The notes under the pieces: generated by a model | What the model was told of the DNA's origin: nothing | The model's database searches: none | Seen by the model: only the letters and a program-made list of their open reading frames with translations | NCBI RefSeq assembly: GCF_900104815.1 | Contig: NZ_FNTD01000004.1 | Location: 5,889,001-5,953,000, forward strand | Length of the DNA: 64,000 bases | Source of the DNA: Streptomyces misionensis | GTDB lineage: Bacteria; Actinomycetota; Actinomycetes; Streptomycetales; Streptomycetaceae | Direction: 5' to 3' | Shown: piece by piece, positions 45,363 to 59,566 of the stretch | Position numbering within the stretch: the stretch's first letter is position 1 | Layout of the letters: the number at the start of each line of letters is the position of its first letter | Position numbers and translations under genes: made by a program

Positions 45363-47894
45363 CGGTTCATGTTCGCCTGCAAAAGGTGGGCACCGACGAC
45401 CATCCTGGCAAGCCCGGTGCCGCCGGTTCACCTCCGCCTGCGCGCGGCGGTCTTCTCCGTCGAGGGGCCGATGCCGGGAGGAAGCGGTTCACCTCCGCCT
45501 GCGCGGAGTGGACCACCGCACAGGGCGCCCTCATTCACCGGGGTACGGTTCACCTCCACCTGCGCGGAGCGGACGACGAATACGCGGCACGGACTGTGCT
45601 GGAGGACGGTTCACCTCCGCCTGCGCGGAGCGGACAGTCCGACGCCCGCGGGCCATGCGCCGGACGACGGTTCACCTCCGCCTGCGCGGAGCGGACGAAT
45701 CGGCGAGCTGTTCTGGGGCCTGCTGCACCGGTTCACCTCCGCCTGCGCGGAGCGGACTCCAAGGCCCAGCACGACATGACCCAGCAAGACGGTTCACCTC
45801 CGCCTGCGCGGAGCGGACCACTCGCCGGGCATGAGCCGGTGGCCGGCGGCCGGTTCACCTCCGCCTGCGCGGAGCGGGCGTGCTGATGGCGAAGGCGAAG
45901 GTAGCCGACGTCGGTTCACCTCCGCCTGCGCGGAGCGGGCGCCATCGAGCGAGGCCGGCAGTCGAACGGCACCGGTTCACCTCCGCCTGCGCGGAGCGGG
46001 CGGACGGCCGAGCTGCTACGCCTGCGGCAGCTCCGGTTCACCTCCGCCTGCGCGGAGCGGGCCCTTTGGCCAGAACCGGCCAAGGTAGGGGGCCCGGTTC
46101 ACCTCCGCCTGCGCGGAGCGGGCCCCGCCTCCCTCGCGCCGTCCTCCCACAGCCACGGTTCACCTCCGCCTGCGCGGAGCGGGCGGCAGCGGCGCGTTCA
46201 ACCAGCGCATGAGCACCGGTTCACCTCCGCCTGCGCGGAGCGGGCTCCGCGTGACCGTCCTCCAGGCGCTCCTGCCACGGTTCACCTCCGCCTGCGCGGA
46301 GCGGGCTGCCCCTCCGCCAGGGCCGCCCACGCCTCGGGCGGTTCACCTCCGCCTGCGCGGAGCGGGCCTGTCCGGGCTGAGGTACCGGCAGGCGAACCGC
46401 GGTTCACCTCCGCCTGCGCGGAGCGGGCCAGCTCCCAGTCCGCGCAACCTGCGCGGTCGTCGGTTCACCTCCGCCTGCGCGGAGCGGGCCTCCACAGCGA
46501 CCCGCGCGACCCGCCGCCCTGCGGTTCACCTCCGCCTGCGCGGAGCGGGCGACGACACCCCGCTCGCGCGGGCGGCCGGCCCCGGTTCACCTCCGCCTGC
46601 GCGGAGCGGGCATCTGCGTGTGGAGCGCAAAGCGACCAGGCTGCGGTTCACCTCCGCCTGCGCGGAGCGGGCAACTGGATCGGCCACGTCGCCATCCAGC
46701 AGACCGGTTCACCTCCGCCTGCGCGGAGCGGGCGGCGCCGTGACCTGCCTGCCCCTTGGAGGCGTCGGTTCACCTCCGCCTGCGCGGAGCGGGCCCCGGC
46801 ACCGGGCTCGTCCATCACTGCGACGGCGGTTAACCTCCGCCTGCGCGGAGCGGGCGGAAGTTCGACGGGGAGGAAGACGCCCCATGACGGTTCACCTCCG
46901 CCTGCGCGGAGCGGGCCTGGGCGAGCCGGTTGGTGTTGTCGGCTGGCGCGGTTCACCTCCGCCTGCGCGGAGCGGGCAGGGTCTGAAGCTGCGCGGCGAA
47001 CGTGGCGGCCGGTTCACCTCCGCCTGCGCGGAGCGGGCACAGCCCCTCAACTCGGCGAAGAGTCGGGGTACGGTTCACCTCCGCCTGCGCGGAGCGGGCT
47101 GCGCCATCTTCAACGCGCCGACCCCGAGCGCCGGTTCACCTCTGCCTGCGCGGAGCGGGCGATCCAGGGTCGCCACGTCAGTTCACCCGGACCGGTTCAC
47201 CTCCGCCTGCGCGGAGCGGGCCAGCCCGGCGTCTACCCCACCAGCGGCCTGGACGGTTCACCTCCGCCTGCGCGGAGCGGGCGCATTCATGTCGAGCGTG
47301 AAGGCCCGCGACTTCGGTTCACCTCCGCCTGCGCGGAGCGGGCATGCAGGCCGGGCCCTTGGCGTCGTTCCAGAGCGGTTCACCTCCGCCTGCGCGGAGC
47401 GGGCATGCTCCGTCACGCCCCTTTGTTCGTACCGTGCGGTTCACCTCCGCCTGCGCGGAGCGGGCGCGGATCACCGGGGCCGGAGGCCCGAGGCCGGCGG
47501 TTCACCTCCGCCTGCGCGGAGCGGGCGACGTCGACATGGGCGACGCGCAGCCGGTCGACGGTTCACCTCCGCCTGCGCGGAGCGGGCGGCAGGCGGGACC
47601 GGGCTATCTCCCGCCACGCCGGTTCACCTCCGCCTGCGCGGAGCGGGCGACCGCGATGGCCTTGCCGCCGGCCGCGGTGATCTGGTTCACCTCCGCCTGC
47701 GCGGAGCGGGCGCTGGGAACGACCCGCGCTGGGACTTCTTCGCCGGTTCACCTCCGCCTGCGCGGAGCGGGCGTCTCGAAGGCGGTACGCGCGGCGCTGA
47801 GGACTGGTTCACCTCCGCCTGCGCGGAGCGGGCGCATCAGCACCCAGTCCCACAACTCCAGCGGGCGGTTCACCTCCGCCTGCGCGGAGCGGGC
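45363..47894 (-). CRISPR. Type I-E CRISPR array 1 (about 42 repeats, 41 spacers)
   Basis: 29-bp repeats at a 61-bp period (32-nt spacers; one 34-nt spacer at 47649-47682). In crRNA orientation the repeat reads GCCCGCTCCGCG, then CAGGCGGAGGTGAACCG. It folds into a 6-bp CTCCGC/GCGGAG stem with 8-nt handle GTGAACCG. The 34 leader-proximal repeats (45851-47894) begin GCCC; the seven distal ones (45424-45818) begin GTCC. The two most distal are decayed (45424 and especially 45363) but remain in phase. The leader end faces cas2, 18 bp away; transcription runs leftward, away from cas, so it may be co-transcribed with the cas operon. Confidence 0.98.
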
Positions 47895-47912: not shown

Positions 47913-48230
47913 CTATAGGGGCTTTGCGATTTCTTGGCTTGTGGGGAGGCGTTGGAAGGCGATGAGGGTGAGGCCGTCGAAGTCGAGGGGGTCGCGGCGT
48001 TGGGGGCCGGCTGTATGGAGGGTGAAGCCTTGTTCGTTGGTTGCGGGGTAGGCCAGGACAGCGCTCCCTTCGGTGAGGCAGGCGGTGAGGTTGTTCCAGA
48101 GTTCGGTGCGGACGCGGGCTGAGATGGTGCCGATGTAGAGGGTAGGTGTGACTTCGAGGAGCCAGCGGGTGAGGGCGCCGCGCAGGTGGTCGGGGACGGC
48201 GGTGGCGGAGATGACGGTCATGGCGGGCAC
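47913..48230 (-). CDS. cas2: CRISPR-associated endoribonuclease-fold protein Cas2e
   Basis: 105 residues. TVISATAVPDHLRGALTRWL and VTPTLYIGTISARVRTELWN match the Cas2e (CasF-type) family that bridges two Cas1 dimers in the integrase. Start uncertain: GTG at 48230 has AGGAG 11 bases upstream; ATG at 48221 (MTVISATAV) is closer to the usual N-terminus. TAG at 47913 lies only 18 bp from the first repeat of array 1, so any leader signal must overlap the end of this gene. Confidence 0.93.
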   Translation of the reverse strand: MPAMTVISATAVPDHLRGALTRWLLEVTPTLYIGTISARVRTELWNNLTACLTEGSAVLAYPATNEQGFTLHTAGPQRRDPLDFDGLTLIAFQRLPTSQEIAKPL

Positions 48231-48254: not shown

Positions 48255-49244
48255 TCAGGCGTGGTTGGTGCCGCCGGGGAGAGGGCCGGTGACGGGGTCC
48301 CAGAGGTCGACGAGTTGTTCGTCGGGCGTTTCGTCGGGGTCGGGTTGGGGGCTGTCGGGGGCGAGGAGGGTCTGGAGGTCGCGGACGATGCGTGGCATGA
48401 GGCGGAAGAGGCGCAGGCCGTCGCGGAAGGAGCGGCGGGCTTCTGCTTCGGGCCGGTCTGAGGTGTTCAGGGAGAACGCAAGGGGGATGGTGAGTTCGGC
48501 CTTGTAGAGGTCGGCGATGTCGTAGACGAAGGCTTGCTGGTTGCCGCTGTGGACGAATCCGAGGGCGGGGGAGCAGCCGAGGGCGACGATGGCGGCGTGG
48601 ACGATTCCGTACAGGCAGGTGTTGGCGGCGGACAGGGCGAGGTTGACGGGGTCCTGGGTGTCCCAGGAGTCGGGGTCGTAGGAGCGGCGGAAGCGTTGGA
48701 TGCGGTGCTGTCTGGCGAGGAGTTTGTAGAGGGCTTTGACGCGTTGTCCTTCGAGTCCGCGCAGTTGCTGGAGGGTCGCTCCTGGTGGGGCCTGGCCGGG
48801 GCCGAAGCGGTGCTCGTACATGGCGGTGGCGATGGCGAGGCGGCGGGTGTCGTCGGCCCAGGCGCGGGCCTGGTGTTCGAGCCAGGTGGTGGTGAGGGTG
48901 CCGGGGACGGTGGCGGCGTAGCAGCGTACGCCGCCCATGCCGGTGATCAGGACGGTGGTGCCGTGGCGGGCGAAGGTGGCCAGGGCGGGTGCGGTGATGG
49001 AGGTACCGGGGCCGAGCAGGACGCAGGCGAGGGAGGCGGTGGGGAGGTAGACGGTCTCGGTGCCACGGCGTTGGGTGGTGATCTCCGCGCATACGCCGGT
49101 GTCGTCCTGGTGGACGCGGACGATGTCGAGGTAGAGGAAGGAGAGGCTGTCGACGACGCGGGGCAGCATGGCGACGGTGGGTGCGGCAAGACGGCGACGG
49201 CCCCCGCCGTTGGGGCCGGGAGCCGTCGCGGGGACGCTGGTCAT
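48255..49244 (-). CDS. cas1: CRISPR integrase Cas1e
   Basis: 329 residues. With Cas2 it inserts prespacers at the leader end of the arrays. Catalytic metal residues: E165 (LRGLEGQRVKALY), H232 (LGFVHSGNQQAFVYD) and D242/D245 (YDIADLYK). Length is slightly above E. coli Cas1 because of a ~25-residue Pro/Gly-rich N-terminus and an Asp/Pro-rich tail. ATG at 49244 overlaps the cas6e stop (ATGA). The frame is open upstream across cas6e, a chance frame. Confidence 0.97.
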   Translation of the reverse strand: MTSVPATAPGPNGGGRRRLAAPTVAMLPRVVDSLSFLYLDIVRVHQDDTGVCAEITTQRRGTETVYLPTASLACVLLGPGTSITAPALATFARHGTTVLITGMGGVRCYAATVPGTLTTTWLEHQARAWADDTRRLAIATAMYEHRFGPGQAPPGATLQQLRGLEGQRVKALYKLLARQHRIQRFRRSYDPDSWDTQDPVNLALSAANTCLYGIVHAAIVALGCSPALGFVHSGNQQAFVYDIADLYKAELTIPLAFSLNTSDRPEAEARRSFRDGLRLFRLMPRIVRDLQTLLAPDSPQPDPDETPDEQLVDLWDPVTGPLPGGTNHA

Positions 49245-49933
49245 GCGGGATCCGGGGCGGGGGCGATGCTGAGGAGTCCGCAGCCGTATGCCTTGCCGCG
49301 TCCGATGCCGCTGAGGATGGCGGTGCGCAGCAGGTCGGGGTCGGTGACGGTGGCGGTGCCGTCGAAGCGCACGCGGTGGTGGTGGATGCGGTTGCTGTGC
49401 TTGGCGCGGTCGGCGCGGGTGGTGTCGGCGGGGTACTGGCGGTCGCGGGCTGCGTCGACGGGCTGGGAGCGCAGGGTGAGGGTTTTCAGTCCTGCTTGGT
49501 CGGCCTGGCGGTGCCACCATTCGTCTGCGGCGGTGCCGTTGAGGGGGACGACGGCGGGGAGCTTGTAGTGGGCGCGGGTGGTGGCGCCGGGCTTGCGGAC
49601 GGGGGAGGCGGTGCAGCGGTAGTGCAGGGTGCGGCCGGGCTTTAGGGCGTCGAGGAGGGCGTCGAGGGGTCGGGTGGTGAGGGTGGCGTACTGGGCGGGG
49701 AGGCGGGCGGGGTCGGGGGGCTGGTTGGACTGCAGCAGGAGGTGGCTGCCGCGGGGGGTGTCCTCGACGCGGAACAGGACACCGAAGTGGGCACGGGCCT
49801 GTTCGGGGATGCCGTCGGGGAACAGGGACATCACGCGGCGGTGGAGGGAGGCGTGGGAGGTGCCGGCGCCCAGTTCCTGCTGGGCCAGTCGGGAGGAGGG
49901 GTGGGGGATGAGCCGGGTGAGGTAGAGGGTCAC
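49241..49933 (-). CDS. cas6e: crRNA-processing endoribonuclease Cas6e (CasE)
   Basis: 230 residues. It cuts pre-crRNA at the 3' base of the repeat hairpin and remains in Cascade. The N-terminal ferredoxin fold begins TLYLTRLIPHP; the candidate general-base histidines are H27 and H31 (GTSHASLHRRVMSLFP). The C-terminal glycine-rich loop GIGRGKAYGCGLLSI is the family signature. GTG at 49933 overlaps the cas5e stop by three bases; the longer frame to 50032 would start inside cas5e. Confidence 0.95.
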   Translation of the reverse strand: MTLYLTRLIPHPSSRLAQQELGAGTSHASLHRRVMSLFPDGIPEQARAHFGVLFRVEDTPRGSHLLLQSNQPPDPARLPAQYATLTTRPLDALLDALKPGRTLHYRCTASPVRKPGATTRAHYKLPAVVPLNGTAADEWWHRQADQAGLKTLTLRSQPVDAARDRQYPADTTRADRAKHSNRIHHHRVRFDGTATVTDPDLLRTAILSGIGRGKAYGCGLLSIAPAPDPA

Positions 49934-50805
49934 TGGATGCTTCCTTCCCGGGCGGGGTGGGCGGCGGGTGTGTAGGTGGGAGAGGTGTAGGCGGCGAGTC
50001 GGGTCAGTTGTCGGGTTCCGTAGTCGGCGCATTGGGAGGCGGGCAGGGTGAGTGTGCGCCGGTAGAGCGGGCGGGCCCGGTGGCGGCGGTGTAGGGAGGT
50101 GAAGTCGACGGGGGCGTCCAGGATGGTGGAGTGCTCCTGCGTGCCGTCGTCGGGTGTGCTGCGGCCGAGGGGGGCGGGCAGTCCGGTCAGGGGCTGGTCG
50201 GACAGGAACAGCACCGAGACCGTGGCGCCTTTGCCGTCATCAGGGCCGGTCACGGCGTGGCGCGCGTGTACGGCGAGGGGGAGGTGGACGAGGTCGTGGA
50301 GGACGTCGGTGCTGCGGCCCAGGAGGAGCGGGCCCGCTGGGGGACAGGAGCGGCGGCCCAGGTAGGGGGGCCAGCGCGGGGACAGCAAAGCGTCGCTCCA
50401 GGAGGCGGGGGGGGCGGTGTGGTCGGGCAGGGTGAGGGCCACGGTGAAGGCGGCGTCCTGCAGGTACCAGCGGGTGCTGGTGAGGGTGGAGGTGTCGCTG
50501 TCGCGTCGTTTGCCGTCGGCGGTGACCACGGTCCGCTCGCGGCTCAGGCCGCCTCCCACGGTGTGGAAGTCGCGCAGGTGACTGCCGGGACGGTCGGCGC
50601 GGACCGTGACCGACAGGGCGAGGTCGTCGAGGCGGTGGTGGCGGGAGCGGCCCAGGGCCGAGGCGAGGAGGCCGGTGATGGCGGAGCGGGTGGGGAAAGG
50701 CAGGGTGTCACGGTCGTCGAAGTGGCTGTGCTCGCCCCAGGACTGCAGGGGTGAGGCCAGCCGCAGCAACAGGCCCGGCACGTGCGCCCGGCGGGGGGCG
50801 CTCAT
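49930..50805 (-). CDS. cas5e: Cascade subunit Cas5e (CasD)
   Basis: 291 residues. Caps the 5' handle of crRNA in Cascade. GLLLRLASPLQSWGEHSHFD and LPFPTRSAITGLLASALG are typical Cas5e starts, and RHAVTGPDDGKGATVSV falls in the variable thumb region. ATG at 50805 overlaps the cas7e stop (ATGA). The frame is open through cas7e to 52239, but that part is Arg/His/Pro-rich and not believed. It is somewhat longer than E. coli CasD (~225 residues). Confidence 0.95.
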   Translation of the reverse strand: MSAPRRAHVPGLLLRLASPLQSWGEHSHFDDRDTLPFPTRSAITGLLASALGRSRHHRLDDLALSVTVRADRPGSHLRDFHTVGGGLSRERTVVTADGKRRDSDTSTLTSTRWYLQDAAFTVALTLPDHTAPPASWSDALLSPRWPPYLGRRSCPPAGPLLLGRSTDVLHDLVHLPLAVHARHAVTGPDDGKGATVSVLFLSDQPLTGLPAPLGRSTPDDGTQEHSTILDAPVDFTSLHRRHRARPLYRRTLTLPASQCADYGTRQLTRLAAYTSPTYTPAAHPAREGSIQ

Positions 50806-51995
50806 GCGGCGCTGTCCTGGCCGGCGGTCCGGACGTGGCCGACGGCTTCGGTGATGAGGGCGTCGAGGCTGTCGGCGCGCGGGCCGAGGGCGTCGGGAAG
50901 GTCTTTGAGTTCCGGGCTGGTCCAGCTCCGGTAGAGGAGGTGGCTGGTGCCGAGGAAGGAGCCGGCTGCTGCCGCGTACTGGGCGAGGGCGTCCACCGCA
51001 GGGGCGCCGTGGCCGCCGTGCGCGCCGGGGCGTACGGGTTCCTCGAAGGCGGCGGCGAAGGAGACGGGCCGGTCGCCGCGCACGGCGAAGTGGACGAGGT
51101 GGGGCAGGGTGTGGGGGGCGGTGGAGTTCTTCTTGGCCTGCGGCACGACGAGGGTGAACGCGGTCAGGAAGCTGGTGAGAACCTCGTGGACGTCGGCGGT
51201 GCTGTCGGTCCCGGCGAGGTTGTGGGTGAGTTCTTCGAGGTCGAGGGTGGCGTAGCGGTAGAAGGTCCCTGCGCTGAACTCGGCGTGGCCCATGTGGGCG
51301 CTGCCGGTGGTGTCCTGCCAGGTGGAGGTGAGGTCGTCGACCGCGGTGAAGTAGTCGAGGTCGGCGTCGGCTTCGTGGGTGGTCATGGCGTGAGCCACCT
51401 GGACGGCGCCGTCGACGCCGGCCCGGTCGACCTCGGCGAGCATGCGCCCGAAGAGGTTGATGACGTCGTTGCGGCTGCGCAGGATCGCGTCCACACCGGC
51501 CTTGGGCAAGGCAGAGGCTTTGGCCTCGCCCTTCTTCGTGATGTCCTTGGCGGCTTCCAGTGTCTGGCGGTGTTCCTCGGCGTAGTCGGCGAGTTCGCGC
51601 ACGGCGGCCCGGGGGACGTAGACCATCGCGTTGGTGATCACGTGGTTGGGGATCGCGGTCTTGGTCTTCCCTTCGGTCTTCTCCTCGACCTCGAACTTGC
51701 CGACCGAGGCGGCGATGTGGGCTCCCGCCCGCTCGGCGAGTTCCTGCGGCCAGCCGCGGTCTGCGAGTTCGCGGGTGACGGCTTCGCCGATGCGGCGGGT
51801 ACGCAGCGTGCTGCTCCCGGTGATCCTCTCGAACTCGACGCGCGTTGCCCGCTTCCAGGACTGGCTGGAGACACGGGTGCGCAGCTTTGCGCCATAGAGC
51901 ACGGTCTTGACGGAGTTCGTGTCGTCGCGGTTGAGGTTCGCGAATGGTACGGACTGGATGATGTGGATGTCGAGGAATCGGGCGCGCGCAGTCAT
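50802..51995 (-). CDS. cas7e: Cascade backbone subunit Cas7e (CasC)
   Basis: 397 residues. Six copies normally form the Cascade backbone along the crRNA guide, with a thumb flipping out every sixth base. The N-terminus FLDIHIIQSVPFANLNRDD and KTVLYGAKLRTRVSSQSWKR are strongly Cas7e-like. ATG at 51995, 68 bp after cas11, with GGAGG upstream. Every-sixth-base unpairing by this subunit matters for the guide match described at 54,641. Confidence 0.97.
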   Translation of the reverse strand: MTARARFLDIHIIQSVPFANLNRDDTNSVKTVLYGAKLRTRVSSQSWKRATRVEFERITGSSTLRTRRIGEAVTRELADRGWPQELAERAGAHIAASVGKFEVEEKTEGKTKTAIPNHVITNAMVYVPRAAVRELADYAEEHRQTLEAAKDITKKGEAKASALPKAGVDAILRSRNDVINLFGRMLAEVDRAGVDGAVQVAHAMTTHEADADLDYFTAVDDLTSTWQDTTGSAHMGHAEFSAGTFYRYATLDLEELTHNLAGTDSTADVHEVLTSFLTAFTLVVPQAKKNSTAPHTLPHLVHFAVRGDRPVSFAAAFEEPVRPGAHGGHGAPAVDALAQYAAAAGSFLGTSHLLYRSWTSPELKDLPDALGPRADSLDALITEAVGHVRTAGQDSAA

Positions 51996-52063: not shown

Positions 52064-52801
52064 TCAGTTCGGGTCGCCGGTCTCGTCGTCCTCGCTGTCG
52101 TGGCGGCGGGCGGCGGCTTCGATGGCGGAGTTCCGGATGCGGTAGAAGTCCTGGAGCCAGCGCCGGGAGATGGCCTTGGAGTACCGGGGCCAGGCCGCCA
52201 GGTCGGCCAGGAGGACGGCGAAGTCGATGTCGGTGTCACTGGCGCGCAACAGTCGCACGCTGCCGGGCAGATGACGGTGGACTCCCTCCAGACTCTGTCG
52301 GGTCAGGAGGTTCAGGCGGGCTTCGGCCGTGTCCTGACGGACCCCGGTCTGTCCGCCCTGCGCGACGACGGCACGGGCGAAGGAAGCGCCCAGGCTGTCC
52401 CGGCGGGCTCGCGCAGGTGGCTTCCGCCCTTCTGCGGGTTCCGCCTCCTTGCCCGCCGTCGATGATGTCTTCGGCTCGTTGCCGGCGGCCGGCAAGTCCT
52501 GTCCGTCGGGCTCCGGCGTCGTCTCGTCGGCGTCGGTGTCGGGGGTGGTGAAGGAGTGGCGGGGCCGGTCGGCGATCATCGCGGCCACGGCGTAGAAGGC
52601 ACGCTCCTCCGCCTCTCCCCTCTCTTCGGGCAACCACGGGGCGACGATGCGGTGCATGGAGCCGACGTCGTTCAGCCCGCGGCGCAGTCCCTTGCGCAGA
52701 GCGACCCGGACACCGGGATCGGCACCGCACCTGGCGGTGATCTCTTCGACGTATGTGCGGTACAGGGAAAGCCGGGTGACAGGTGGGGCGGTGATGGTCA
52801 T
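52064..52801 (-). CDS. cas11: Cascade small subunit Cas11 (Cse2/CasB)
   Basis: 245 residues. Helical small subunit that stabilises the R-loop in Cascade. GSMHRIVAPWLPEE and SLGASFARAVVAQ are Cse2-like; a Thr/Glu/Pro/Ala-rich linker (~85-135) interrupts the family and makes the protein longer than E. coli CasB (160 residues). ATG at 52801 with GGAGG about 9 bases upstream; 66 bp after cas8e. Confidence 0.93.
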   Translation of the reverse strand: MTITAPPVTRLSLYRTYVEEITARCGADPGVRVALRKGLRRGLNDVGSMHRIVAPWLPEERGEAEERAFYAVAAMIADRPRHSFTTPDTDADETTPEPDGQDLPAAGNEPKTSSTAGKEAEPAEGRKPPARARRDSLGASFARAVVAQGGQTGVRQDTAEARLNLLTRQSLEGVHRHLPGSVRLLRASDTDIDFAVLLADLAAWPRYSKAISRRWLQDFYRIRNSAIEAAARRHDSEDDETGDPN

Positions 52802-52867: not shown

Positions 52868-54460
52868 TCAGGAGCGCGGACGCCGGTTGCCGCCGTAGAG
52901 CTCGGTACGGGCGTCGGCGACAGCGCGCGCACCGCGCTGGGTGTGGCACACCGGCTCGGTGACGCTCGCGTAGGCCCGTTCCGCGATCCGCAAGAACGCC
53001 CGCCTGGCAGCGTTACGGTCCAGTCCGGCCTCGACGAGGAGCGCGCCGCTCGGATCGAGGCCGTCGAAGCGGGACCAGAACTCCTCCTCGGCGTGCGGCC
53101 AGTACAAGGCGGCGGCCCGCTCTGCCCAGTTGTCAGCTTCCTTCGGCCTGGTCTCACGGGTGTAGAGCTGGCAGGCACGGCGCACCGCGTACTGCACGCG
53201 CCGCCCGTACAGCTCGCCGGTGCGCCGCAGCCAGCCGACCGCCGGCGCGACGGCCGGGTTGGTTTCCTCGGCCCGGTCAAGGACGGGCGGGGTCAGCCCG
53301 GCGACGAACTGCCGGTCCTTGGCCTGCCCGTCCTGCTCGAAGCCGAGAGCACGCACGGCCAGTGGCCTGTCCAGCACGTCGGAGACTTCCAGGGCATGGG
53401 AAGGGGAGAAGACTTCGGGGTGGCGGGCCTGGGCCGTGCCGCCGGGTTTGAGCAGCAGCAGGCTGTCGATGTCCCGCCACAGCGCGCGCCCCGAATCCGC
53501 AGGCCGGGGATAGGGGTTGCCCTGCTGGCTGATCTGCCAGATCAGGAACGGGTCGTCGCGCGGCAGACGCCCGTCGCGGTAGGCCCAGGTGATGAAGGCA
53601 TCCGTCACGACGTTCTCGTCGTCCGGGTCGGGGATCAGGAGCAGGGCATGCTGGGAGACGGCCGTCAGCCGCGAGCAGGGCCCCTGCACGGGGGGCGGTG
53701 GCGCGTCCGGGTCGGGCAGTTCCTCCCACTCCCACATGCAGCGGTCCGTCGTACGGCTCACCTGCGGGTCCGGGTGAAGGAGGCCCGCCAGGAGAGTCTC
53801 GAAGAGGGTGGAGCCCTCGGGATGGTAGGAGAGCGCGCCGCGCAGCGGGCCCGCCTTCATGTTCGCGCTCGCGGTTCCACCGACGGTGCGGGCGGAGCCT
53901 CGTCCGGAGGGGCCGTAGTAGTGCCAGGTCAGCAGGCTCAGGGCGGCTTCACCGGCGGGGACGGGGTCAGGGTCGCCGTCCTGAACGTGGGTGAACCAGG
54001 CGTGATTGTTTCCGGAAGGCCGGGTCGGCACCAGCTTGTTGACCCCGGCCGAACGCGCCGGATCGCACTGTTCGGCCAGGCGCGGGTCCTGCATCCAAGG
54101 CCGCTCGCCGAACAAGCACAGCCGGTGCGCCCAGGCGTCGAAGTAGGCGATGATGCCGTCGGCGGGCAGACGACCCGTGTCCAGAATGTTCAGACGGCGC
54201 TCGGACCAGTCCTCTCCCGATCCGTCGTCGTCCTCATCCAGCGCGCACACCCGGGCGGTGAGCGCGTACAGCGTGCGCAGGACCGCGGAGTAGGCCGGCG
54301 GTTCGGTGATGGCGAGCGAGCTGATCTCGTGACTGCGCGCCAGCACGGTGCGCAGGCCGACCAGCGGCGGGAGGTGCTTGCCGCCTGCTTGGGCGGCCGG
54401 AGTCCACAGGACCGGGATCCACGGTGCTTCGTCAAGGGGAAAGGTGGACACCGTGAACAT
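52868..54460 (-). CDS. cas8e: Cascade large subunit Cas8e (Cse1/CasA)
   Basis: 530 residues. It recognises the PAM and recruits Cas3. FTVSTFPLDEAPWIPVLW at the N-terminus, SGNNHAWFTHVQDG, and YGPSGRGSARTVGG are conserved Cse1 segments; the C-terminal four-helix bundle ends near ARTELYGG. Length is in the normal Cse1 range. ATG at 54460 behind AGGAG, four bases upstream. First gene of a tightly packed Cascade-adaptation operon; its probable promoter is at 54631-54659 and is the predicted target of the crRNA-like element in its leader. Confidence 0.96.
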   Translation of the reverse strand: MFTVSTFPLDEAPWIPVLWTPAAQAGGKHLPPLVGLRTVLARSHEISSLAITEPPAYSAVLRTLYALTARVCALDEDDDGSGEDWSERRLNILDTGRLPADGIIAYFDAWAHRLCLFGERPWMQDPRLAEQCDPARSAGVNKLVPTRPSGNNHAWFTHVQDGDPDPVPAGEAALSLLTWHYYGPSGRGSARTVGGTASANMKAGPLRGALSYHPEGSTLFETLLAGLLHPDPQVSRTTDRCMWEWEELPDPDAPPPPVQGPCSRLTAVSQHALLLIPDPDDENVVTDAFITWAYRDGRLPRDDPFLIWQISQQGNPYPRPADSGRALWRDIDSLLLLKPGGTAQARHPEVFSPSHALEVSDVLDRPLAVRALGFEQDGQAKDRQFVAGLTPPVLDRAEETNPAVAPAVGWLRRTGELYGRRVQYAVRRACQLYTRETRPKEADNWAERAAALYWPHAEEEFWSRFDGLDPSGALLVEAGLDRNAARRAFLRIAERAYASVTEPVCHTQRGARAVADARTELYGGNRRPRS

Positions 54461-54498
54461 CACGCTCCTGCGGTGGGCGGGTTGGCACAATGGGTATC

Positions 54499-54588
54499 GA
54501 GGGCCCCGTGTGAGCGGGGGTGAACCGGGTGCGTGCCACAGCTCGCCGCCGGTGCTTCCCCTCTGCTCGCGCAAGCGGGCTCGTCCGG
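54499..54588 (+). ncRNA. Solitary crRNA-like RNA (CreR/CreA type) in the cas3-cas8e gap
   Basis: A single repeat-guide-repeat unit on the plus strand, antisense to the cas8e leader. Repeat-like 1 (54499-54527) matches the array repeat at 20 of 29 bases: 6-bp stem CCCCGT/GCGGGG, GTGA loop and the complete handle GTGAACCG. The 32-nt guide is 54528-54559. Repeat-like 2 (54560-54588), exactly 61 bp on, has stem GCTCGC/GCGGGC and loop GCAA in the same register, with a decayed tail. CACAAT at 54486-54491 could be a -10 placing the RNA start at the first repeat. A GC-rich hairpin (54587-54623) follows. Neither half lies in an array; see the guide target at 54641. Confidence 0.78.
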
Positions 54589-54630
54589 CCCACCCCTCGT
54601 CTCCCAGTGCCGGGGGGCGGGCCTGGTCCA

Positions 54631-54672
54631 ATCATCCAAGGGTGCCTGGCACAGCTCAAGCGGTTCGGTGAC
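54631..54672 (-). promoter_or_regulatory. Probable cas8e promoter overlapped by PAM-flanked guide target
   Basis: Reading leftward: TTGAGC (54659-54654), 17-base spacer, GATGAT (54636-54631), i.e. -35 and -10 for cas8e with a ~165-base leader. On the plus strand 54638-54640 is AAG, the classic I-E PAM, followed by a 32-nt protospacer, 54641-54672. It equals the crRNA-like guide at positions 1-5, 7-8 and 10-17 (mismatches at 6 and 9) and differs almost everywhere beyond 17. A second -35-like TTGACC lies at 54681-54676. Cascade bound here would cover the -35 and spacer. Confidence 0.72.
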
Positions 54673-54677
54673 CTCGG

Positions 54678-57614
54678 TCAAATTCGATCGATTCCGGTCT
54701 CGCGCGTGAACTCGACGCGTCTGCCGTCGAGTTGACCGTGCCAGACTGCGCCCTCGCTGCCCTCCGCCGTACGGACCATGGGTACGAGGACGAGGTCACG
54801 CAGGTGGGTCTGCTTGCGCCAGGCCGCAGGAAGGTCGGGCCGCTCGCCAGCCGGAGGCAGCCAACTGCCGGGTACGGGTACGGCGCGCGCGACGATCCGT
54901 CGCACCGCCGCCCGGTCCGGAGCACCCTTGTCCGGCATCGGGAGTCGCCCGTCCTCGTCGAGCGAGACTCCCCCCGCATCCTGGGTGAACAGCATGAGCA
55001 GGCGTCCGGTGTCGGCACCGAGCCGGGTGGTGAGCAACTCCGCGGTCATCTCCGCGGTGCCTTTGCTCAGGAGGGACAGATCACCGCGTACCGCATACGG
55101 TGGACTGATCCCAGTCATCACGGCGAGCGTCTCCTCCGCGATCTGAGCACCCGTCCGGCGCTGGTCGAGTGCGTGCAGCCGCCGCGCGGCCGCCTCGGCC
55201 TCCTCCCCGCCGGCCTCCTTCAGCCGATCGGTGAAGTCCTGCGCGTACACGGCGTCCACGAGGTGCTGCACGTCCCCGGGAACAGCGATTCCCTGCCCTG
55301 CCTTCTCCCGCAGCAGGGCGGCCGAGCGCAGCAGAAGCGAGTGGTCGTAGACGTCTCCCCACGACCTGGGGGGCTCGGTCGCACCGTCCGGCCCGGTGGG
55401 CTCCAGGATGACCAGAGCAGGCCGCTCTTCCGCTCGCGCCCAGTGGGGCCGTCCGGCCGCCCCGCGGGCGTGGCGCCGTCCGCGGCCAGCGCGTTGCAGG
55501 AGTAGGGCCAGCGGAGCGAGGTCACTGACCACGAGGTCGAAGTCGAAGTCCAGTGACTGTTCCACGATCTGGGTCGCCACCAGGATCGACGCAGGCCGCG
55601 CACAGGGCTGTTCGTCCGGGCCGGGCTTTCCGTAGGCGTGCTCGCAGTCGGCGGTGATCTCCTGTCGCAGCAGGCCGGGGAAGCGTGAGTGAAGCAGCCG
55701 GAGCCCGCCCTTCCTGCGGGCCAGGGCCGGGAACGCCCTGCGGAGGTCGCGGAAGGTGCGTTGTGCCTCAGCGACGGTCGTGCAGCACACCAGCGCCGTC
55801 CCGCCGAACTCGGCCACGGGAGCAAGGACTTCACGTAGTACGCCGCGTCGCCCGCCCGGCTTCAGCCGGGCTTCGCTGTCATCGCAGTCCCAGGTCACCT
55901 GCCGCAGCGACAGGTCCAGGGTGCGTGGGCGCAAGGTCGCCACCGCGCGCGCATGCGACACCTCTCCCGTCGCGGCGTCCGTGAACAGCCAGCCTGGGTA
56001 GGCCGGTTGAATGTTGCAGGGCGCGGTGTAGCCGGCACCCCGCCGGTACGCGTCGACGAGGGAACTGGCGGAGCGGCCGGTCAACGTCGCCGACAGCAGC
56101 ACCACCGGCGCCCGCAACGCCCCCAGCCATTCCAGAAGGCGGACCATGAGCGTCTGCATCCACGGCCCGTAGGCATGCGCCTCGTCCACGATCAGCACCT
56201 TGTCCGACAGGCCGAACAGACGCAGCGCGTTGAAGGAGACCAGCAGGACCGCAGCGAGAGCCTGATCGATCGTGCCCGCGCCCAACGGCGCGACAAAACC
56301 CCGCTTGCCGCCCTCCCGCAGCCATGCACGCGCCTCCACCGCAGTGGCCGGAGCCGCACTGAACTCATCGTCTGACGCATCCGCGTCCTGCTCACCCTGT
56401 CCGACGGTCTCCTTGAGGCTCCAGGTGTCCGTCGCGCGTCCGCCCTGGACGCCGTCCATCGCGGGGCTCAGCCAGGCCGCGCTGTGCATCAGCAACAGGG
56501 CCCGCTCCCCGGTCAGCACGCGCTCGGCGAACGAGGCCACCCGGGGGAACATCTGGTCCGCGGTCGCCATCGTCGGCAACGCGAAGTACACCCCTCGCGC
56601 CCCCGAGGCCCGACCGAGCGTCGCGGCCGCGAACAGGGCTGCCTCCGTCTTCCCGTCGCCTGTCGGCGCTGTCACCAGTACCAGTCCCGAGCCTTCTTGC
56701 CCCACCAGCCCGGGCAGGACCTCCGCGATGTCCTGCTGCAATGCGTTCGGCGTGAACGGAAACAACTCCTCGAACTTCAAAGCCTTCTTACGCGGGAACT
56801 CGGTACGGCCCAGTCGCGCCGTCGCCACCACGCCAGGCGCGTCCCGCGCAGCCTGCCGGTAGTGCGCATCCAACTGTTCCGCACTGCCCGGCCACGTCCT
56901 GGACGGCAGACCGGGCAGGATCCACTCGACGCTGCTGGCCAGCCAGTCCGCCAATACGACCAGCCCGTACACCCGCACCGACGTCGCCGCCGACAGCTGC
57001 CCTGCCGGCACGGTCTCGGCCCCCACTACCCGCCGAACCGCCTCAAGATGGCAGCGCCGCTGCTCCTGCCACCCGCGCTGCCCCAGCCCCGCCTGATACT
57101 GCCCGGCTGCCGCGGCTTGCCGGGGCGGCACCACATCTGCAAAACACCCGTGGTGCCCGCCCAGCAACTGGGCCACTTGATGCGGCAGACTGCGCGCCTG
57201 CACCCGCGATACCGGATATCCGGCCTCCGCCAACAATGACACCAACGCCCAGTGCGTCCCCAGCTCGTGCCGGAACCCCGCCAACCTCTCGGCCCCTGCC
57301 GCCGCAACGTAGACCCCGTCGCCCGTCAACGCCCTGAACGCATCCGGCACCTGCGCCTGGAACGGTGGCGTGATCTTCCCCAGATCATGCAGACCCGCCC
57401 ACCACGCCAGCACCGCTCGCGCCTCGCCCACACCCAGCCCAAGCTCCCCCGCGACGCGCGCTCGTAACCGAGGGTGCAACAGGACATCCCACAGCGCGCC
57501 GAACACCGCTGCCACATCCAGCAGATGACAGATCAAGGGGTACGGATACGGCAGTCCCCGCTCCTTGCCCCACACCCGCACATCCACCTGGTCCGGGACC
57601 ACCACATCGCTCAT
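54678..57614 (-). CDS. cas3: CRISPR helicase-nuclease Cas3
   Basis: 978 residues from the ATG at 57614. The N-terminal HD nuclease has H30 (LICHLLDV) and H76-D77 (AGLHDLGKITPPF), with further His in GHHGCF. The superfamily 2 helicase has TAPTGDGKTEAALF (Walker A), LIVDEAHAYGPW (DEAH), VLLSATLTG (motif III) and LLQRAGRGRRH (motif VI). It degrades targets marked by Cascade. The frame is open to 57800; an ATG 69 bases earlier is possible, but the sequence from MSDVVVPDQVDVRVWGKERGL on fits family starts. 217 bp separates it from cas8e, enough for an independent promoter. Confidence 0.95.
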   Translation of the reverse strand: MSDVVVPDQVDVRVWGKERGLPYPYPLICHLLDVAAVFGALWDVLLHPRLRARVAGELGLGVGEARAVLAWWAGLHDLGKITPPFQAQVPDAFRALTGDGVYVAAAGAERLAGFRHELGTHWALVSLLAEAGYPVSRVQARSLPHQVAQLLGGHHGCFADVVPPRQAAAAGQYQAGLGQRGWQEQRRCHLEAVRRVVGAETVPAGQLSAATSVRVYGLVVLADWLASSVEWILPGLPSRTWPGSAEQLDAHYRQAARDAPGVVATARLGRTEFPRKKALKFEELFPFTPNALQQDIAEVLPGLVGQEGSGLVLVTAPTGDGKTEAALFAAATLGRASGARGVYFALPTMATADQMFPRVASFAERVLTGERALLLMHSAAWLSPAMDGVQGGRATDTWSLKETVGQGEQDADASDDEFSAAPATAVEARAWLREGGKRGFVAPLGAGTIDQALAAVLLVSFNALRLFGLSDKVLIVDEAHAYGPWMQTLMVRLLEWLGALRAPVVLLSATLTGRSASSLVDAYRRGAGYTAPCNIQPAYPGWLFTDAATGEVSHARAVATLRPRTLDLSLRQVTWDCDDSEARLKPGGRRGVLREVLAPVAEFGGTALVCCTTVAEAQRTFRDLRRAFPALARRKGGLRLLHSRFPGLLRQEITADCEHAYGKPGPDEQPCARPASILVATQIVEQSLDFDFDLVVSDLAPLALLLQRAGRGRRHARGAAGRPHWARAEERPALVILEPTGPDGATEPPRSWGDVYDHSLLLRSAALLREKAGQGIAVPGDVQHLVDAVYAQDFTDRLKEAGGEEAEAAARRLHALDQRRTGAQIAEETLAVMTGISPPYAVRGDLSLLSKGTAEMTAELLTTRLGADTGRLLMLFTQDAGGVSLDEDGRLPMPDKGAPDRAAVRRIVARAVPVPGSWLPPAGERPDLPAAWRKQTHLRDLVLVPMVRTAEGSEGAVWHGQLDGRRVEFTRETGIDRI

Positions 57615-57828: not shown

Positions 57829-59566
57829 GTGTCCGCTCCGCGCAGGCGGAGGTGAAGAAGTCGACGCTCATCCGGGCGTCATCGGTCTGGTGTCCGCTCC
57901 GCGCAGGCGGAGGTGAAGCTCCATCATGACAAGCACTGGGACACGGTGGTGTGTCCGCTCCGCGCAGGCGGAGGTGAAGAAGGAGCGGAGCCGGGGAGGG
58001 TCGAGGGGCGCGTGTCCGCTCCGCGCAGGCGGAGGTGAAGGACCCGCTGGAGGCCGTGGCCGGGGACGTACTGTGTCCGCTCCGCGCAGGCGGAGGTGAA
58101 GACCCACCACATCTCCGCCTCCAGCCGCCGGGCGTGTCCGCTCCGCGCAGGCGGAGGTGAACCGACACCGACCCGCGCTGGGCCGACACCGCCGTCGTCC
58201 GCTCCGCGCAGGCGGAGGTGAACCGTGGCTGCGCAAGACCACCGCGAAGATGCTCCCGTCCGCTCCGCGCAGGCGGAGGTGAACCGGCCCGCCAGCCGCC
58301 GGAGCGGCGGTGGGGGTCGTCCGCTCCGCGCAGGCGGAGGTGAACCAGCTGCTGTTTCAGGCCGTCACCCGCTACGGACGTCCGCTCCGCGCAGGCGGAG
58401 GTGAACCGGGCACCAGCTTCCCGTCCGTACCGCTCGCCTCGTCCGCTCCGCGCAGGCGGAGGTGAACCGGGACCGGTGCCACCCAGCCGTGGAACGAAGC
58501 CGTCCGCTCCGCGCAGGCGGAGGTGAACCGATCGAGGAGATCACCGACCTGTACCTGCTGACGTCCGCTCCGCGCAGGCGGAGGTGAACCGTCCGCTTGG
58601 GCCTGGTTCATCACGTCGGTGATGTCCGCTCCGCGCAGGCGGAGGTGAACCGCCCGCTCGGGCCACCACGCAGCCGGCGGAAGCGTCCGCTCCGCGCAGG
58701 CGGAGGTGAACCGTAATCCTTTGTTCCGAACTGAGGAAAGCCGTAGTCCGCTCCGCGCAGGCGGAGGTGAACCGGCCATCGAGACCGCCGGCGCCGTGGC
58801 CACGGCGTCCGCTCCGCGCAGGCGGAGGTGAACCGGAGCCGGGGCTGAGGTAGTCGTAGACGTTGACGTCCGCTCCGCGCAGGCGGAGGTGAACCGCCGC
58901 CGAGGGCCAGGACGTAGATACCGCCGTCGTCCGCTCCGCGCAGGCGGAGGTGAACCGACGTTGACCTGCTTGGGCAGGCGGGTGCGGGCGTCCGCTCCGC
59001 GCAGGCGGAGGTGAACCGTGGGTGCAGGTCTTCACCGGCTACCTGAACAAGTCCGCTCCGCGCAGGCGGAGGTGAACCGATCACCGCCGCGAACCAGCTG
59101 GCCGCCGACTCGTCCGCTCCGCGCAGGCGGAGGTGAACCGCCGGGCCCGGCGACGACGGCGCCGAGGAGGGCGTCCGCTCCGCGCAAGCGGAGGTGAACC
59201 GTAGAGCGGAAACGTCAGCCTCCGCGTCGAGCCGTCCGCTCCGCGCAGGCGGAGGTGAACCGTCGACCGTGTCGCGCTTGTAGACCATGCCGCGGTCCGC
59301 TCCGCGCAGGCGGAGGTGAACCCGGGGCGGGGCTACCGAGCTGCCGCCCCGCCCCGTCCGCTCCGCGCAGGCGGAGGTGAACCGGAGTCAACGACCGGAT
59401 CCGGAGGGCAGTGATGTCCGCTCCGCGCAGGCGGAGGTGAACCGGTCGACTCGCCCCCTGGATCGTCGGGCTCGTGGTCCGCTCCGCTTACGCGGAGGTG
59501 GACCGCGGTGCTGGCCGGTGGGGTTGGTGCAGGCGACGACCGCTCCGCTGACGCGTAGGTGAGCCG
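57829..59566 (+). CRISPR. Type I-E CRISPR array 2 (about 29 repeats, 28 spacers)
   Basis: Same 29-bp repeat as array 1 in the opposite orientation (GTCCGCTCCGCG, CAGGCGGAGGTGAACCG), 61-bp period throughout except one 60-bp step near 59416. Leader end at the left, next to cas3; crRNA runs rightward. The first five repeats start GTGTCCGC and end GTGAAG; the sixth has the new 5' end and the old 3' end; all later ones have the standard form. The last two (59477 and 59538) are decayed. One variant has CAAGC in the loop (59173) and two have changed last bases (58319, 59295). Confidence 0.98.

Follow-up and report, generated by a model that had tools for sequence, protein, structure and literature searches.

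A putative creR-type guide gene upstream of cas8e in the type I-E CRISPR-Cas locus of Streptomyces misionensis

Introduction

What is a single repeat-guide-repeat unit doing between cas3 and cas8e of a Streptomyces type I-E locus, away from the CRISPR arrays, and what is its guide aimed at? A guide that turns a CRISPR effector onto its own cas promoter, resulting in autorepression, is known from Cas9 systems in the form of tracr-L. The latter is a single guide derived from tracrRNA in type II, Cas9-based systems, in contrast to the type I-E system considered here. A closer relative is CreR, reported for types I-B, I-E, and V-A (Liu et al. 2023 Cell Host Microbe, as described in PMC13131331, PMC12948488, and PMC12737573). 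CreR as described there is a mini-CRISPR type of RNA that resembles a crRNA, is partly complementary to the promoter controlling its own cas operon, and has no toxin partner; the unit is predicted to encode an RNA of this kind. The unit shares with CreR the ectopic repeat-spacer-repeat beside a cas operon, the partial guide match just upstream of that operon, and the correct PAM.

We consider it highly probable that the unit is a creR-type gene, i.e., a solitary repeat-guide-repeat. According to this prediction, its RNA would enter the system's own Cascade, which would bind an AAG-flanked target upstream of cas8e and likely repress cas8e to cas2 without cutting. This reading draws on the anatomy of the unit, the AAG PAM, a guide-target match at 15 of 17 positions, the presence of eight cas genes, and the co-variation of guide and target in relatives, and it is the relatives that decide the matter.

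A solitary guide unit in a complete type I-E locus

The window, i.e., the whole stretch of 64,000 nucleotides that was analyzed, contains a type I-E locus that is complete, as NCBIfam models recognized 8 of 8 cas genes, all of them on the minus strand; 2 arrays flank it (Table 1). The gap between the start of cas8e (54460, minus strand) and the end of cas3 (54678, minus strand) spans 217 bp. The unit within this gap is encoded antisense to cas8e and lies outside both arrays, and cas3, which is not located downstream of the predicted targeted promoter, ends just past the target of the guide.

Table 1. Features of the type I-E locus and of the guide unit, with coordinates relative to the window.
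Feature	Coordinates	Strand	Evidence and remarks
CRISPR array 1	45424..47894	-	41 repeats
cas2e	47913..48230	-	TIGR01873, E 1.9e-20
cas1e	48255..49199	-	TIGR03638, E 1.2e-104; start assumed
cas6e	49241..49933	-	TIGR01907, E 4e-24
cas5e	49930..50805	-	TIGR01868, E 2.3e-54
cas7e	50802..51995	-	TIGR01869, E 1.2e-87
cse2 (cas11e)	52064..52801	-	TIGR02548, E 7.7e-16
cas8e (cse1)	52868..54460	-	TIGR02547, E 4.9e-89; heads the operon that is likely repressed
Predicted creR -10, CACAAT	54486..54491	+	7 nt before psiR1; kept in L115
psiR1, first degenerate repeat	54499..54527	+	GAGGGCCCCGTGTGAGCGGGGGTGAACCG; stem 54504-54509/54514-54519
psiR1 handle, 8 nt, GTGAACCG	54520-54527	+	same as in the main repeat of arrays 1 and 2
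Guide, 32 nt	54528..54559	+	positions 1-5, 7-8, and 10-17 pair-match the target
psiR2, second degenerate repeat	54560..54588	+	same hairpin register as psiR1; without handle
Inverted repeat, psiR2 to target, no T-run	54587..54623	+	by eye; candidate creR transcript end
Predicted cas8e -10, GATGAT	54631..54636	-	comparison with L115 (AATGAT)
AAG PAM	54638..54640	+	PAM-free rescan of relatives
Target (protospacer)	54641..54672	+	matched part 54641-54657
Predicted cas8e -35, TTGAGC	54654..54659	-	within the target, spaced 17 nt from the -10; same spacing in L115; inferred
cas3	54678..57611	-	TIGR01587 and TIGR01596 above cut-off; start assumed
CRISPR array 2	57831..59566	+	29 repeats; handle GTGAACCG in 20/29

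Folding revealed a 6-bp stem with a 4-nt loop in the same columns of psiR1, psiR2 (54560-54588), and the array repeat, with one or two extra outer stem pairs in the array repeat and one extra in the minimum free energy structure of psiR1. When the 90-nt unit was folded alone, a single long hairpin was preferred over the 2 repeat hairpins. The near-identical repeats that characterize an ordinary array were not found, as psiR1 agrees with the array repeat at 20 of 29 positions, and psiR2 shares the hairpin and its register but not the handle. Since the same 20/29 agreement is reached at 4 non-array spots in the window (26762 and 60691 on the plus strand, 4322 and 3683 on the minus strand), overall identity was rejected as evidence for psiR1, and the signal resides in the handle together with the hairpin register. 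Among relatives, the psiR1 handle equals the array handle in only 6 of the 24 cases where both were seen.

The guide matches an AAG-flanked target beyond chance

The target starts 113 bp from the start of the guide and matches it at 15 of the first 17 positions, beyond which agreement falls to background level; the mismatches are found at position 6 and at position 9, the latter not being a flipped position. With 4 AAG sites located 33-450 nt from the guide start, the expected number of matches at 14 or more of the 15 scored positions (1-17 minus 6 and 12) is 1.5e-6, and 0 of 300 shuffled guides scored as well as the real guide. In the 8.47-Mb genome of the strain, AAG followed by the 15 matched bases occurs at exactly 1 site; allowing up to 3 mismatches, 8 sites were obtained, one of which is the guide itself, and a reversed-pattern control likewise yielded 8. 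The sequence-only reading had described a plus-strand repeat-guide-repeat in the 217-bp gap and a guide matching at positions 1-5, 7-8, and 10-17 next to an AAG at 54638-54640 before diverging, and had judged such a seed-plus-PAM match very unlikely to arise by chance. Coordinates, handle identity, hairpin register, and the extent of the match were all reproduced by direct inspection and comparison, and the chance estimates above agree with its judgment.

In Escherichia coli, AAG and approximately 5 seed pairs are described as enough for Cascade binding, and PAM-distal mismatches as abolishing detectable interference (PMC5904413). For the haloarchaeal CreA, pairing at positions 1-5 and 7-11 is reported to be needed, and pairing at positions 6 and 12 not (PMC8501985). 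The PAM of the type I-E system of Streptomyces avermitilis is AAG (PMC4762764).

Predicted promoters place the target in front of cas8e

A consensus scan of the window found no promoters for creR and cas8e and called no terminator. The promoter assignments are therefore based on comparison with relatives, among them Streptomyces sp. SolWspMP-5a-2 (L115), which is the closest named relative among the best 80 of 184 loci (cas8e 93 percent). The only gene following the target within the gap is cas8e, and the stretch between the predicted cas8e transcription start and cas8e consists of the antisense of the creR unit. In S. avermitilis, the genes from cse1 to cas2 are reported to be co-transcribed, with cas3 in a separate operon (PMC4762764), which is consistent with the expectation of a promoter in the cas3-cas8e gap. 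The S. avermitilis system, compared by its description, thus resembles the present one in its PAM and in this operon split, but differs in that no regulatory guide appears in the available text of that account (PMC4762764).

With the predicted targeted promoter located in front of cas8e, it is very improbable that the guide is a CreA-type antitoxin repressing a small toxin RNA, as in CreTA, instead of the cas operon. The resemblance to CreA as described is considerable: the same psiR1-psiS-psiR2 anatomy, a PAM inside the promoter combined with seed pairing at 1-5 and 7-11, free positions 6 and 12, and Cascade as the repressor (PMC8501985). However, the gene behind the targeted promoter is cas8e rather than creT, and the antisense of the unit fills the space between the predicted start and cas8e. 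The system described for CreTA is of type I-B with a TTC PAM (PMC8501985), in contrast to type I-E with AAG here.

Co-variation of guide and target among relatives

For the survey of relatives, 193 cas8e-upstream regions were compiled from sets of 30, 53, 80 (the best 80 of 184), and 30 (top loci), with genomes overlapping between sets and with 6 duplicates or second fragments left out of the first set of 30. The main scan required a hairpin with an octamer resembling the handle immediately behind it, followed further downstream on the same strand by AAG and a match to the guide; it covered the strand antisense to cas8e, and targets were sought downstream of the guide. It was passed by 61 of the 193 regions, which yielded 48 distinct guides after identical guide starts were merged (that of the window included). 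Passing loci were found in Streptomyces, Kitasatospora, Nocardiopsis, Thermomonospora, Actinomadura, Catenulispora, and Sinosporangium, and among the named loci (best 80 of 184), 33 of 80 passed, or 34 when L191 from the relaxed scan described below is included.

Guides and targets belong together within each genome. A full 7-position seed was present in 46 of 48 own guide-target pairs (an AAG target being required by the scan) but in 10 of 2256 combinations when guides were swapped between genomes; 9 of the latter passed the fuller threshold, and all 9 joined similar guides. Because the main scan had used the match, it was repeated with selection by anatomy alone, which resulted in 49 distinct non-array units, 38 of them with an AAG target carrying the seed. 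The corresponding controls gave 0/49 for reversed guides, on one strand as well as on both, and 1/980 for shuffled guides. Full-seed targets were missing for 11 of the 49 units, some of which are probably chance hairpins; L131 is a near miss (13/15).

The comparison with L115 illustrates how the pairing is maintained. Their alignment spans 241 columns, of which 26 differ when gaps are counted. Within positions 1-17, the L115 guide carries a single change (position 7) and its target 4 changes (positions 6, 7, 9, and 12). At position 7, T has changed to C in the guide and in the target alike, so that pairing is kept, and the remaining target changes are located at the 2 flipped positions, 6 and 12, and at position 9, which is mismatched in both. 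Similar co-changes were observed at position 5 between L132 and L204 and at position 9 between L144 and L145, with the limitation that a seed match was required by the selection. In sum, pairing was found conserved and co-varying in dozens of relatives, on which the sequence-only reading had staked its proposal. It is worth noting that the approximately 50 distinct guide-target pairs from Actinomycetota are related to one another and not all independent.

The second hairpin is conserved as well, although the main scan did not select for psiR2: in 43 of 48 units, a hairpin with a 6-bp stem and a 4-nt loop starts +36 to +39 from the guide start (17 of 48 units at exactly one register), compared to 161 of 9600 random sets of 4 offsets and 43 of 9600 in a single-offset control. 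Between psiR2 and the PAM, the fold of the segment has a z of -1.87 in the window and a mean z of -1.88 over 47 units, 28 of which lie below -1.5 (mononucleotide shuffles).

The predicted promoter elements recur among the 48 units, too. CACAAT was found within -22 to -4 of the first repeat in 18 units, and CACAAT variants or TANNNT within -24 to -2 in 37 units, neither count having a computed background. On the cas8e strand, 30 of 48 units have a TANNNT at an offset of 0-9 nt beyond the PAM, most commonly 3, compared to 3, 1, and 0 units at control offsets. The -10 hexamer of the window itself, GATGAT, does not conform to TANNNT, and the window is therefore not among these 30.

The main scan was failed by 132 of the 193 regions. 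A relaxed scan of the failing loci retrieved 8 units whose geometry differs or whose handle is weaker (1 in the reversed-guide control), namely L067, L070, L071, L081, L082, L083, L085, and L191, in which the target lies between the unit and cas8e, the opposite strand is used, or the unit is in sense orientation. These likely represent CreR units in other layouts, while in the other failing regions the unit appears to be absent.

On a tree of cas8e (80 rows; L182, with a stop in its translated stretch, was left out), the window joins L115 among the Streptomyces rows, and the unit switches between present and absent 13-14 times. These changes may reflect repeated gain in one layout, and common descent with loss would explain them equally well. 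A DNA-level search with the gap against 392 genomes of the genus matched 22 genomes, its own included; besides its own genome, only the match in G330 (the same genome as L013) adjoins a known cas8e location, and the rest are short.

Two further observations concern individual relatives. L057, L131, and L183 contain well-formed units upstream of cas8e whose guides lack a full-seed AAG target, which makes them candidates for recent decay or retargeting. L014, a type I-E locus that bears CreR, is located on a contig of 290,055 bp; the unit is probably also plasmid-borne.

Unpaired positions and the PAM fit Cascade geometry

Positions 6 and 12, both of which were unscored in the selection, lack pairing in 43 and 32 of the 48 units, respectively. 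Matches accordingly number 5/48 at position 6 and 16/48 at position 12, compared to 96/96 at positions 5 and 7 combined and 84/96 at positions 11 and 13 combined, the latter 4 positions having been scored. Pairing decays from about position 15, and the background match at positions 19-32 averages 27 percent. The unpaired positions 6 and 12 are thus as predicted from base flipping by Cascade, and the proposal that the mismatch at position 6 in the window reflects a flipped base fits the collection as a whole. At position 6, the match frequency (5/48) even lies below the background of 27 percent (P 0.004, kinship ignored), as if pairing were avoided; since kinship is uncorrected and several of the units in other geometries match at position 6, we do not build on this depletion.

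The array spacers gave no usable protospacers, and the PAM was therefore taken from a PAM-free rescan of the relatives. Searches for phage protospacers returned 0 matches for array 2 spacers and 1 weak match for array 1 spacers. Plasmid matches of the array spacers (63 and 111 records, 20 of each viewed) were taken as repeat-to-repeat matches and set aside. In the rescan, AAG preceded 45 of 77 same-strand matches, with no other triplet occurring more than 3 times, and 0 of 16 opposite-strand matches; this is the same AAG that is described as the PAM of the S. avermitilis type I-E system (PMC4762764).

These patterns argue against a decayed orphan mini-array whose target match is the leftover of a local duplication without present function. 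Degenerate repeats and a match that stops at position 17 are what such a remnant would leave behind, but the joint change of guide and target in relatives already contradicts it, and neither free positions 6 and 12 between conserved neighbors nor a constant PAM with a -10 phased to it would be expected. We regard this explanation as scarcely tenable.

Proposed mechanism of Cascade autorepression

On the preferred creR-type reading, creR would be transcribed from the CACAAT promoter and trimmed by Cas6e, giving a predicted CreR RNA of approximately 61 nt with the 5' start GUGAACCG. Cascade loaded with CreR would form an R-loop over the spacer and the -35 of the cas8e promoter and thereby block RNA polymerase. 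An attack by Cas3 would not be expected, because pairing ends near position 17 and would be too short. The DNA encoding the guide should itself escape binding, as it is preceded by CCG, which is described as a background PAM in E. coli (PMC5904413). Repression would ease once Cascade is drawn off by array crRNAs or by an anti-CRISPR, and relief of CreR by crRNA or anti-CRISPR is described in a review (PMC12737573). Since cas3 is not behind the targeted promoter, Cascade and the adaptation genes would be regulated and cas3 would not. The earlier suggestion that Cascade binds here without Cas3 cleavage is compatible with the PAM, the seed, the mismatch at position 6, the location in the predicted promoter, and the limited match.

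Alternatively, the guide might direct priming or adaptation control, with Cascade parked on the chromosome and recruiting Cas1, Cas2, and Cas3. Imperfect matches can prime in E. coli, but extensive PAM-proximal pairing is described as needed there (PMC5904413). Moreover, the phasing of the target to a -10 speaks against this explanation, and priming on the chromosome would presumably be harmful, which together leave it with a very slim chance. That the inverted repeats are instead sites of a protein regulator or a cas8e attenuator unrelated to Cascade is similarly far-fetched, since stable hairpins are indeed located within the likely cas8e leader, but the handle, the guide length, the AAG, and the co-variation of guide and target would be left unexplained.

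The sequence-only reading treated this case as more singular than warranted, as CreR of type I-E is a kind already in print (PMC13131331). What is new compared to the available text of the CreR accounts (PMC13131331, PMC12737573, and PMC12948488) is the collection from Actinomycetota, the promoter phasing, and the position of creR antisense within the likely leader of its target operon. Among the openly accessible papers listed, no report of CreR in Streptomyces was found, which does not prove that none exists.

The approximately 50 guide-target pairs amount to a natural experiment on Cascade autorepression, with respect to seed, PAM, flipped bases, and promoter phasing. They lead to the prediction that many of these antibiotic producers keep their type I-E immunity in check through its own effector, and such autorepression would bear on phage resistance as well as on Cascade-based engineering of these hosts.

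The antisense leader as a possible switch

In the window, creR lies antisense inside the likely leader of the mRNA that it is predicted to repress. It is conceivable, though we put it forward only tentatively, that the 2 transcripts form a mutual-inhibition switch. CreR-loaded Cascade would shut the cas8e promoter, transcription from cas8e would run against creR, and the cas8e leader, as a perfect complement of CreR, could sequester it. If true, Cascade would be induced in a bistable, all-or-none manner, in place of simple negative feedback, as soon as the crRNA load or an anti-CRISPR tips the balance, and the antisense-leader layout makes the model directly testable.

In an orientation-free scan of the 38 anatomy-selected units with a target, 36 had the antisense-leader layout, 1 was antisense but had its target on the opposite side, and 1 was in sense orientation. 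The layout is hence common but not obligatory, as in some relatives the target flanks the unit on the opposite side or another strand is used.

Irregularities of the CRISPR arrays

Both arrays of the window deviate from regularity in minor ways. The repeats of array 1 mostly start with GCCCGCTCC (29 of 42 sampled places, a few of them out of register), where those of array 2 start with GTCCGCTCC. Toward the far end of array 2 (59356-59566), one period measures 60 nt, corresponding to a 31-nt spacer between 59356 and 59416, and the repeats at 59477 and 59538 are degenerate. In its cas3-proximal part (57831-58103), 5 repeats end in GTGAAGNN in place of GTGAACCG, with an unchanged period of 61 nt and with GAA, GCT, GAA, GGA, and GAC as the last 3 bases. 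These 5 repeats look as if their acquisition had involved a repeat of 26-27 nt together with a longer spacer, or as if a mutated first repeat had served as their template.
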